Below are positions 7,725-30,457 of a stretch of 41,652 bases of DNA, in pieces (within the stretch, counting starts at the first letter, position 1; each line of letters starts with the position of its first letter). The position numbers were made by a program, and so were the translations under genes. The DNA is from Candidatus Bathyarchaeota archaeon (GTDB lineage: Archaea > Thermoproteota > Bathyarchaeia > Bathyarchaeales > Bathycorpusculaceae), in the NCBI GenBank assembly GCA_017883615.1, contig JADGNF010000028.1, positions 1-41,652 on the forward strand, read 5' to 3'. The notes under the pieces are model-generated. The model ran no database searches. It was not told where the DNA came from and was given only the letters and a program-made list of their open reading frames with translations.

Positions 7725-7945
7725 CAATCGAGAAAGAATGCTTAGCCGTGCTATCAGAAGAACTCGGACCAGCCGCCAAAGCATTTCTCGACCGCCAAAC
7801 CAGAAACCACCTAAAAAAAGAGCCGTCGATGCTAGAGAAAGCAGACCTTGACGAGTTAGCAAAATGGTCCGCAGTTGGAGTTCAAATGGCGCTTGGGGCA
7901 CAAATCGCGGAAAACGTCAAAAAAGGTCTGTTGGCGCTGAAGTAA
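7721..7945 (+). CDS. Small helical protein coupled to the HAMP receptor
   Basis: A 74-residue soluble, probably all-helical protein, not recognised. It overlaps the receptor stop by four bases (ATGA), which argues for coupled translation and a shared function. A central basic patch (RQTRNHLKK) is followed by an amphipathic helix and a hydrophobic end (GVQMALGAQIAENVKKGLLALK). It may bind the HAMP helix or act as its output adaptor; that is inference from position alone. A T-tract follows the gene. Confidence 0.8.
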   Translation: MTIEKECLAVLSEELGPAAKAFLDRQTRNHLKKEPSMLEKADLDELAKWSAVGVQMALGAQIAENVKKGLLALK

Positions 7946-27366: not shown

Positions 27367-28620
27367 TTAGATTTGGAGATCGGCCATTTTGGCGCGGTTT
27401 CCTAGGAACTGCTCGATGCGTAGCAGTTCGTTGATTTTGGCGATTCGGGCGCCTTCTACGATGCCTGTTTTGATGATTGGGCAGCCGAATGCGACTGCGA
27501 GGTGTGCGATGTGCCAGTCGGTTGTGTCGCCGCTTCGGTGGGACATTACGCAGCTGTAGCCGTTGCGTTGGGCGGTCATTATGGTCTCTAAGGCGTCTGT
27601 TAATGTGCCGATTTGGTTAACTTTTATGATGATGGCGTTTCCTGCGTGGATTTTTACGCCTTGGGTTAGTCGTTCGTTGTTTGTTGTGAAGAGATCGTCG
27701 CCGCAGATGAGGCAGTTCTTGGTTTGGCGTGTGAGTTCTGCGAAGCTCTTAAAGTCTTCTTCGTGGAATGGGTCTTCGACGTATGCGAGATGGTATTTTT
27801 CGATGATTTCTTTGACGTATTCGAGTTCTTCGCCGCTGTCGCGTTTGACGCCTTCGTTGGGGTACTCGTAAACTTGTTCTTTCTCGTTCCAAAGTGAAGA
27901 GGAAGCCATGTCAAGGCCGAATCCGCATTCGAAGTCAAGTTCGTTGCCGACTTCTTCGCAGGCCTTGGCGATTATTTCAAAAGCGTCGGCGCCGTCGATG
28001 CTGGCGATCCATGCGCCTTCGTCGCTTTTGCCTGCGGTGAAGGTTTTGTCTTTTTTCTTTAGGACGTCGCCGATTTTTTTGTGGATTTGGGTGTTTGCGG
28101 TTGCGGCTTCGAGGAAGGTTTCGGCGCCGTATGGTAGTGCGAGGAATTCTTGGATGTCTGGGCTTTTTCCTCTCAGTGCGTGTTGTCCGCCTGAAATGCA
28201 GTTGCCCAGTGGGTAAGGCAGGATAGTTGCTTTGCTTCCGCCCAGGAACTGGAATAGGAGGAGGCTGTGGCTGTTGGCGGCTGCTTCCGCGTTTGCTAAT
28301 GAAACTGCGAAGGCGGTGTTTCCGCCGATGATTTTGAAGTTGGTTGTGCCATCAATTTCGTGGAGGGTGTTGTCGATTTCTTCTTGGTAGTCGGAGTTGA
28401 GTCCGGCGAGTTCGGGTGCGATGAGTTCGTCGGCTTTTTTTATTGCTGCGTCTACGCCGCCTGAGGGGTAGTAGATTACTTCGGCTTTTCCGCGGCTTTT
28501 CCCAGCTGGAGCTGAGGCTCTACCGAAGCCCGCTGTGGTTATCACGTCAACCTCGATGGTTTCTTCCCCTCGATTGTTGAAAACTTTTCTTGCAATGAGG
28601 TCTTCAATGATTGATGACAC
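27367..28620 (-). CDS. eno: Enolase
   Basis: Converts 2-phosphoglycerate to phosphoenolpyruvate in glycolysis and gluconeogenesis. Metal ligands are Asp 237, Glu 282 (YVEDPFHEED) and Asp 308 (CGDD). Lys 333 in IIIKVNQIGTLTD and the signature SHRSGDTTD (360-368) complete the active site. At 417 residues it is typical of archaea. The GTG start has GAGG ten bases upstream. First gene of the cluster. Confidence 0.97.
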   Translation of the reverse strand: MSSIIEDLIARKVFNNRGEETIEVDVITTAGFGRASAPAGKSRGKAEVIYYPSGGVDAAIKKADELIAPELAGLNSDYQEEIDNTLHEIDGTTNFKIIGGNTAFAVSLANAEAAANSHSLLLFQFLGGSKATILPYPLGNCISGGQHALRGKSPDIQEFLALPYGAETFLEAATANTQIHKKIGDVLKKKDKTFTAGKSDEGAWIASIDGADAFEIIAKACEEVGNELDFECGFGLDMASSSLWNEKEQVYEYPNEGVKRDSGEELEYVKEIIEKYHLAYVEDPFHEEDFKSFAELTRQTKNCLICGDDLFTTNNERLTQGVKIHAGNAIIIKVNQIGTLTDALETIMTAQRNGYSCVMSHRSGDTTDWHIAHLAVAFGCPIIKTGIVEGARIAKINELLRIEQFLGNRAKMADLQI

Positions 28621-28718
28621 TGGGTTTTTCCTCAGGTGGCTAAGTTAACTTTGCTGGGTCTTTTTTAGGTTTCGGATATGGTGTGTTTTGAGTTTGGAGT
28701 GTTTTGGGTGTTTTGGTT

Positions 28719-28995
28719 TCTTGTTTGTAGTAGTAGTGGGTGTTTTTGGAAAATACTACTTCTTTTCGGTTGGGTTTTGGGTTGCTTGTTTGGTTTGGGT
28801 TGGTTCTTGAGTTTTTTGTAGAAGAGGAAGCGTTGGCTTATTCAACAACTTGTCGAGGTGTGTGCGTGCAACGGTGGAGGGGGGTTGGGGTTGCATATAC
28901 GTTTTGCATATACAAACGTATGTACAGTCCGCGCCTGGAACGTTGAGGCGATGTTTCTTTTTCGATTAGGCTTTGTTGTTGGCTGAATTTGTTTT
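28719..28995 (+). repeat. Tandem structured element, copy A
   Basis: First copy of a non-coding element. In order it holds: a hairpin AGTAGT/ACTACT (28732-28758); a G/T-rich spacer ending in GGTTCTTGAG; a second imperfect hairpin beginning GTAGAAG at 28828 and closing by ACTTGTCG; GTGTGTGCGTGC; a G-run box GGAGGGGGG; and a tail with GCATATAC twice and a stem ATACGTTT/AAACGTAT. Copy B starts 277 bases later with the same order of parts. The G·T pairs that occur favour the plus strand as the RNA strand. Confidence 0.65.
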
Positions 28996-29225
28996 TCTTG
29001 TTGGTAGTAGTGGTGGGTGTTTTGCGTTTTACCACTTCTCTGGATCTGTGCGTTTTGGGCTCTGTTTTTGGTTTAGGCGGGTTCTTGGGGTTTTGGTAGA
29101 AGTGAGTGCTGGAGCATTCACTACTTCTCGCTTAGGGTTTAAGTTGGGTGTGTGCTTGCGCAAAGGGGGGAGGGGGGTCTTGTTTGTATATACATTTTCC
29201 ACGTATAGCGTATATACACTCTTCT
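28996..29225 (+). repeat. Tandem structured element, copy B
   Basis: Second copy, aligned part by part with copy A. Hairpin 1 is AGTGGT/ACCACT (29009-29036): relative to copy A one A-T pair has become G-C, with both sides changed. Hairpin 2 is stronger here (GTGAGTGC/GCATTCAC, one G·U pair, at about 29102-29121, flanked by AGAA/TTCT). GTGTGTGCTTGC, then GGGGGGAGGGGGG and two GTATATAC palindromes follow. A weaker hairpin starting GTGAAGAA at 29290 may be a third, decayed copy. Confidence 0.65.
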
Positions 29226-29581
29226 GGGTTTGATTGGGAGTTTAGTTGTTTCAATTCTTTTCATGCTTGCGTTGTTGGATTGGCAGTTTGTGAAGAAATG
29301 GTGGGTTTAACAGTTTCTGTTCGTTTTTGTGATTTTTAAGATAGATATTTGGAAACACTAAAGCCTCCTTGTTGAGGCTGAGAAAAGGGCTTCGTTAATG
29401 CTATCTGCCATTCTTAATTTTTTTGGATTTGAAAATCTGAAGCAATTATCTTAGGTTTTTTTCTTAGGCCTTTGATTTCTTGTATATCCGCAGGTTTCGG
29501 TACGGCTGGTTTTTGCGCGTGATTAGGAACAAGTTTTATCTATACTGGACATGTATTTTCAATCAAAAGGCAGGTATTAAA
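29226..29581. other. Intergenic region upstream of the surface protein
   Basis: No gene is supported. A 6-bp hairpin AGCCTC/GAGGCT (29362-29379) and a TATA-like AGTTTTATCT (29532-29541), about 45 bases before the ATG at 29582, are the visible signals. AGGCAGGT (29569-29576) is a possible ribosome site. Confidence 0.4.
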
Positions 29582-30457
29582 ATGGTACACACCAAAAAAA
29601 GCGCCTTAACGGTAGCAATGACACTTGTATTCTTGACCGTCATGTTGACTACTTCAGCACGTGCCCAACCCACACCTGGCACCCTAACTGCTTCCTCAAC
29701 AGACACTCCCAGCGTTCTCACGCTAACAGGAAGCGGATTTGGCACCTCCGCAACAGTTAATATCGGCATATACCTTAACGACCAAACAACCTTAGCGTTT
29801 GCCCTTCCCGACGCAACAACAGACGACCTAGGAAACTTTGCAGTTAACATTACTTTACCCATTGTCAGCACTTCAGGCTTTTACCTGATCATTGCAAACA
29901 CCACAAACGTCGTAGGCTTCCAACCATGGGTTTTGTTCTCACCAAGCGACGCATCGCAGACTGGACCCGCAGGCAACGTTCCAGAAACTGTCAAAGTTTC
30001 ACCAGACAACAGCAACATTTTCAACGTCACCGGCCAAGGATTCGACGTCTCCAAACCAGTCACTATAATACTAGCCCCGCCCCATGGACCAGCAACGTAC
30101 ACCTTCCCACCGAGCCAAATAACGACCGATAGCCAAGGTAGATTCTCGGCAATAGTCATCGTCCCCACAACCATAAGCGGGTCATTCAATCTGGTCGCCT
30201 CAACCGCTAATGGCAACGTGATCAGCAGCGCAAACACCACAGTGACAATTCCCAACCTTCAAGGTCCAATAGGTCTAACTGGAGCAACCGGAGCAACAGG
30301 CGCCCCGGGCAACAACGAAACATCCGGTTCAACATCGACGAATACAACCCTAGCCTACATTAGCATCGCGTTAAGCGTTGTTGCAATAGTCATCGGTATC
30401 TATGCAATAACAAAGACCAAGCATCGGCCATATGAAGAAAAAACGGCTAATGAGTAG
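29582..30457 (+). CDS. Secreted membrane-anchored surface protein with two IPT/TIG-like domains and a collagen-like segment
   Basis: A 291-residue protein. It has a signal peptide (about 1-27, ending TTSARAQ), two Ig-like repeats of about 95 residues each containing the matching phrases LTLTGSGFGTSATVNI and FNVTGQGFDVSKPVTI, and then a Gly-X-Y stretch (GPIGLTGATGATGAPG). A Thr/Ser-rich spacer, one membrane helix (about 258-278) and a short basic cytoplasmic tail follow. It is anchored with the Ig-like part outside. ATG 29582 is chosen because the signal peptide starts there; upstream in-frame codons (from 29480) are not part of it. Confidence 0.85.
   Translation: MVHTKKSALTVAMTLVFLTVMLTTSARAQPTPGTLTASSTDTPSVLTLTGSGFGTSATVNIGIYLNDQTTLAFALPDATTDDLGNFAVNITLPIVSTSGFYLIIANTTNVVGFQPWVLFSPSDASQTGPAGNVPETVKVSPDNSNIFNVTGQGFDVSKPVTIILAPPHGPATYTFPPSQITTDSQGRFSAIVIVPTTISGSFNLVASTANGNVISSANTTVTIPNLQGPIGLTGATGATGAPGNNETSGSTSTNTTLAYISIALSVVAIVIGIYAITKTKHRPYEEKTANE

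Follow-up and report, generated by a model that had tools for sequence, protein, structure and literature searches.

Dispersed repeats of prokaryotic genomes are usually short palindromes or remnants of transposons. In eukaryotes, the retroelements Ty1, Ty3 and Tf1 are inserted just upstream of core promoters, within a preferred window. MITEs, including Correia elements, are short, non-coding, multi-copy, intergenic and hairpin-forming, and Correia elements can carry promoters and are found for the most part immediately upstream of genes (PMC10969869). REP, REPIN and GTAG palindromes, which go with the Y1 enzyme RAYT, are dispersed extragenic hairpins with species-specific expansions (PMC3733652, PMC6006769). 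The bathyarchaeal repeat family described here shares these properties of MITEs and of REP palindromes, and is larger, strand-asymmetric and in register with the archaeal core promoters of the most basic genes; the genes hit are largely different in each species. For the terms used, a literature search returned no paper joining Bathyarchaeia with non-coding RNA or repetitive intergenic DNA.

The window (the whole stretch analysed, 41,652 nucleotides) comes from a Candidatus Bathyarchaeota genome of 1.73 Mb in 79 contigs, designated G000. Within it, the interval 28620-29582, between the start of the enolase gene (28620, minus strand) and that of a gene for a secreted-looking protein (29582, plus strand), is free of genes. 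An earlier note, made from the sequence alone, had described a tandem pair of non-coding elements here, 277 bases apart and with a common order of parts, and alignment of the two copies, A and B, bears this out (matching segments of 30 nt at 93%, 39 nt at 77% and 13 nt at 92%). The order in both is a T-rich start, hairpin 1, a G/T spacer, hairpin 2, a GTGTGTGCG box, a G-run and a tail of TATAC boxes. The features of the locus are as follows (z, folding relative to dinucleotide shuffles).

27367-28620, minus strand: enolase gene (Pfam PF00113, PF03952), transcribed away from the element
28660-28676, minus strand: enolase core promoter, TCCGAAACCTAAAA, BRE/TATA-like, from comparison of upstream regions; conserved in the genus and beyond
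28713-28929, plus strand: element copy A (nhmmer E 5.6e-57, 398 kb searched; 161.9 bits with the R1 model)
28729-28760, plus strand: hairpin 1 of A, AGTAGTA (28729-28735) with TACTACT (28754-28760), from the sequence and alignments A1 and A2; z -0.31
28820-28852, plus strand: hairpin 2 of A, degenerate, AAGC/GCTT and AAGT/ACTT; z +0.07
28876-28884, plus strand: G-run box of A, from the tail-pattern search
28893-28925, plus strand: tail of A, three TATAC-type boxes (28893-28900, 28906-28913, 28918-28925), from the sequence and alignment A2
28990-29221, plus strand: element copy B (nhmmer E 9.6e-53; 144.1 bits with the R1 model; z -2.0 as RNA)
29009-29036, plus strand: hairpin 1 of B, AGTGGT (29009-29014) with ACCACT (29031-29036); z -1.04
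29098-29128, plus strand: hairpin 2 of B, AGAAG-TGAGTGC / GCATTCA-CTA-CTTCT; z -1.47
29165-29177, plus strand: G-run box of B, from the tail-pattern search
29186-29217, plus strand: tail of B, GTATATAC (29186-29193) and GTATATAC (29210-29217), from the sequence; z -2.75
29582-30457, plus strand: secreted-looking protein on the other flank, an ORF without a Pfam match

Copy A starts ~40 bases upstream of the enolase core promoter. Copy B is longer and has a strong hairpin 2, that of A being weak. A third hairpin, at 29290, does not belong to the family (z +0.3, no profile match). An 86-aa frame over copy B (28973-29233) was rejected as a gene and is a by-product of the A-poor strand; the G/T strand, being short of stop codons, leaves frames open over most copies, and these are broken by 1-2-base indels between copies, so that a protein-coding element was likewise rejected.

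The resemblance of A to B is far above chance, since G000 carries at least 13 further copies, making at least 15 full copies, plus fragments, that match along ~220 bp. A DNA search located the unit at ten places, namely the window and, at 79-86% identity, nine more. Searches by pattern and profile raised this to 15 full copies with one fragment, a set that a calibrated sequence model reproduced together with a weak tail-only match; copy counts here and below are lower bounds, 150 candidates per genome having been scored. Partial or decayed copies include the fragment on contig C4, a decayed copy on C33 and one with an internal deletion on C50. The tail pattern had 15 matches in G000 and none in the control, and all 15 lay at known copies or at the C4 fragment. 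A 20-mer of hairpin 1 had no exact match in the GTDB 220 genome set, and a link to viruses was dropped, as the five 17-mers that matched IMG/VR seem coincidental.

One strand of the element is G/T-rich. Of 18 stretches in 199 kb of G000 that have at least 76% G+T on one strand over 150 bases or more, 13 overlap copies. The earlier note had offered three readings of the locus, one being an origin-like region, to which G-runs, AT-rich palindromes and divergent genes would lend some colour. We see almost no chance of a replication origin with G-run boxes and palindromes: 15 copies are scattered over one 1.7 Mb genome, the local skew is that of the element's own G/T strand, the annotated neighbours in G000 are not replication genes, and a Pfam scan of ten ORFs around the element found none that was orc1/cdc6. 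Within the spacers, G-T exchanges outnumber transitions (66 vs 39 in G000 and 125 vs 82 in G003, a related genome, counted at G- and T-majority columns), an excess that hairpin 2 and the tail do not have. This pattern suggests that the spacers keep their composition under sequence drift, although low-complexity alignment error could contribute, and hints that the composition is selected, not merely inherited.

Seven genomes of the genus (G000-G006) were searched. Apart from that of G005 the assemblies are fragmented, with several contigs that stop within one of these repeats. The named relatives from an enolase-based search are Candidatus Bathyarchaeota and Bathycorpusculum assemblies. Among the findings that the earlier note would have counted against its reading was a lack of further copies in relatives; same-genus copies do exist. 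G003 has at least 53 matches to a model built on its own copies, including a second, longer subfamily of ~330 bases; G006 has about ten copies in total, G005 one, and G001 and G002 a few, and the search of G004 gave no convincing copy. G000 itself contains two copies of the G003 type besides its own family. The tail stands in front of hairpin 1 in G006 and G005 and behind hairpin 2 in G000; the modules are therefore exchangeable.

The 3' part of the long form in G003 (L128:1985-2301, L115:1701-2047) is conserved and contains a near-perfect hairpin, CAACATATGTGCTATGTTG, as well as a GTGAGTGCATGTTGACTG box; it is common to G003, G005 and G006 and was not found in G000. Assemblies break at long-form elements: contigs C17 and C26 of G006 (L003, L129) end inside a 567-base repeat of 92.6% identity that contains the long form. 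A transposase beside the long form in G005 and G006 was considered and rejected, because the flanking genes encode secreted beta-propeller proteins. These paralogous, PQQ-like proteins adjoin long-form elements at L130, L131 and L133 (G006/G005), and have very similar C-terminal anchors and several hundred bases of DNA in common; this looks like a joint duplication of the element and the gene ends.

The hairpin-1 end of the element usually faces a gene start at ~140 bp, immediately upstream of the core promoter. In G003, the gene boundary on the hairpin-1 side is a start in 34 of 42 cases and an end in 8, and on the other side a start in 18 of 41 and an end in 23 (Fisher P=0.0006), counts that come from an in-house gene caller whose individual calls may be off. 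Where both G003 neighbours run in the same direction the split is 15 vs 2 (P=0.002), and the median distance to the start is 136 bp. Placement in G000 tends the same way, with few tandem-intergene cases, which are unbiased (~2 vs 2). A minority of copies start 4-30 bases past the end of a gene or tRNA. The neighbours are core genes; they include, in G000, enolase, ribosomal proteins S15 and S30, GAPDH, proteasome alpha, a class II (D, K and N type) tRNA synthetase, Elp3, an adenylate-kinase-like protein, HMG-CoA reductase and EF-2; in G003, thermosome, LonB, a Csl4/Rrp4-type exosome protein, GINS, Nop5, a LeuB-type dehydrogenase, an acetolactate-synthase-like enzyme, RNA polymerase B, MetRS, L22, RNase HII and Hsp20. 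With repetition throughout the genome and a non-random position and orientation at promoters, the repeated regulatory element comes closest among the three readings of the earlier note. As a separate observation, a second dispersed motif, approximately GACTATAGCCCCCTTATATATAGAATCTAC and TATA-like with a C-run, occurs in the flanks of G003 copies (L113, L104, L112, L107); motifs of this type lie near many G003 copies, on either side of the element and in constant orientation.

Four sites are common to G000 and G003: enolase, psmA, GAPDH and HMG-CoA reductase. The core promoters of the first three are conserved across the genus, and in both G000 and G003 the element lies ~40-90 bases upstream of them, with different hairpin arms; it is absent upstream of these three genes in G001, G002, G004, G005 and G006. 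At the fourth site, between a metallo-beta-lactamase gene and HMG-CoA reductase, the element has opposite orientations in the two genomes. In a tree of the enolase, psmA and GAPDH proteins, G003 is sister to G004 (100% support). Since G004 has no copy at the three sites that were checked, the sites common to G000 and G003 need losses or repeated gains; the opposite orientation at HMG-CoA reductase favours repeated gain. Placement thus turns over and yet returns to the same promoters.

These properties were compared with those of known mobile repeats. Like MITEs, the element is short, non-coding, multi-copy and intergenic, but it has no terminal inverted repeats (the longest word common to the 5' end and the reverse-complemented 3' end is 4 nt) and no target-site duplications (the mean longest common flank word is 4.47 within vs 4.68 between copies in G000, and 4.62 vs 4.14 in G003). 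Unlike MITEs and Correia elements it also has an asymmetric G/T strand, oriented away from the promoter. A classical MITE was rejected for its missing inverted ends and target duplications. Neither Y1 transposase (PF01797) nor reverse transcriptase (PF00078) was found in any of the seven genus genomes, with positive controls that worked, and IS200/IS605, REP and retroelement origins were set aside on this account. A MITE parent enzyme was sought in these two classes and none turned up. Many copies resemble REP in a GTAG or GTGG at the foot of hairpin 1. However, the element is 150-330 bp long against 20-65 for REP, and its GTAG, replaced by GTTG in older copies, pairs with CTAC inside the stem rather than standing 5' outside the hairpin as a REP/RAYT guide does. 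The element fits no named repeat or RNA family among those tested, and to that extent the earlier statement that no known archaeal class fits holds.

We give about an even chance to the element being a genus-restricted, dispersed non-coding repeat that behaves like a mobile one and is targeted to, or kept beside, active promoters. It looks like a mobile repeat because its copies are multiple, lineage-specific, decaying and in places tandem: full and decayed copies coexist in G000, relatives have separate expansions, five of them (G004 included) have the enolase, psmA and GAPDH promoters without the element, enolase in G000 has a pair of copies and HMG-CoA reductase has copies in opposite orientations; the position bias in G003 and the core genes as neighbours agree with this reading. 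A family of this copy number, lineage-specific turnover, position and orientation could arise if the repeat spread like a non-autonomous mobile element, with integration or survival preferentially just upstream of the core promoter (the TFB/TBP site) of active housekeeping genes and with the G/T-rich strand reading away from the gene. Copies would then be made by transposition-like copying and not by recombination between promoters, the hairpin end might be the feature recognized by the copying machinery or the promoter complex, and this machinery would belong to neither of the two enzyme classes tested. Against the mobile repeat stand the missing terminal inverted repeats, target-site duplications, Y1 transposase and reverse transcriptase, the unbiased tandem intergenes of G000 and the hint of selected composition in the spacers; moreover, an exact empty site cannot be delimited because the nearest relatives are other species.

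The bias in position and orientation has one of two sources, targeting by the promoter complex or a selected function upstream of the gene. Targeting would open promoter-directed integration in archaea to study; selection would mean that housekeeping promoters are rewired by a spreading module. The more specific proposal, which we put forward tentatively as a possibility, is a repeat guided to the upstream side of assembled promoters, with a fixed orientation and a preferred distance, that recolonises the same housekeeping promoters across lineages and whose mobiliser lies outside Y1 and reverse transcriptase. Such a repeat would be an archaeal parallel to promoter-targeted integration in eukaryotes. 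With Ty1, Ty3 and Tf1 the likeness is one of analogy only, as the element has no long terminal repeats and reverse transcriptase is absent from the genus genomes.

Selection for an upstream function leads to another explanation, which we find rather doubtful: the element may be an activating module upstream of promoters, made up of putative sites for protein binding (inverted AGAAGTAGT-like half sites, the G-run and the TATAC boxes), that raises or co-ordinates housekeeping transcription and is copied from promoter to promoter. Its place 40-90 bases upstream of three conserved core promoters in two species, the orientation bias in G003, a tail module found only within the element, repeated half sites and invariant alignment columns, and the constraint on composition suggested by the spacer exchanges would all suit an activator. 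However, most relatives keep the same promoters without it, some copies directly follow gene or tRNA 3' ends, and across the genus the two arms vary in concert, as those of a hairpin would, with no single binding motif held. The readings overlap in part: an element that began as mobile may since have been recruited for regulation.

The behaviour of the hairpins bears on the last of the three readings, a structured RNA. The hairpins of A and B are present in the sequence as described, but most single hairpins fold at the level of dinucleotide shuffles, hairpins 1 and 2 included, and the TATAC tail of B alone stands out; folding of the whole copy gives z +1.3 for A, compared with -2.0 for B. The two-sided change in hairpin 1, which the earlier note took for covariation, amounts between A and B to one C/T difference and a register shift. 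The stem is nearly invariant across 15 copies in G000, where arms pair equally well with their own and with swapped partners (P=0.53). The same swap test gave P=0.07 within a G003 set of 21, P=0.04 for 18 older copies and P=0.001 for 43 copies from four genomes, own arms pairing better than swapped ones; covariation of hairpin 1 is therefore seen genus-wide only. The outcome is equal on the opposite strand, so the test supports a hairpin without choosing RNA over DNA. Older copies have divergent yet matching arms, GAAGA/TCTTC in G002, AGTTGTGCA/TGCACAACT in G001 and GTTG/CAAC in G006, and a conserved GGTTGC loop; by eye, a further small hairpin (TTGTG/CACAA) can be seen close to the 3' end of genus copies. 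A formal pair count on the G003 alignment found G-U pairs at one stem position and covariation not above its shuffles.

We regard as unlikely, on this evidence, a non-coding RNA encoded in many copies and transcribed from the G/T-rich strand, in which an unstructured G/U-rich linker connects two conserved hairpins. The genus-wide swap test, the arm exchanges in single older copies, the G-U pairs and a plus strand that leads away from the promoter or gene end in most copies argue for such an RNA, which could start divergently from the neighbour's promoter or extend the 3' end of an upstream gene or tRNA. Archaeal promoters are reported to transcribe divergently (Warman et al. 2021, as cited in PMC10268837), which would be a plausible source of the transcript. 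Against an RNA are the swap tests that fell short in the single-genome sets, the pair count, the shuffle-level folding and the equal result on the opposite strand. In addition, aligned copies have no conserved TATA box or promoter ahead of hairpin 1, at the 5' end of the element, and a search of Rfam 15 gave no match above the gathering score in the window and nothing but a chance-level miRNA match at five loci.

Old copies adjoin tRNA genes directly at L274 (G002), L283 (G006) and L134 (G001). At L062 (~7840-7880, contig C71 of G000), a fragment of a tRNA 3' half, GCCGGGAGTTCAAATCCCGCCCGATCCA, lies between a copy of the element and a pair of genes for PIN-like (DUF5615) and DUF433 proteins, and is perhaps an old integration site.
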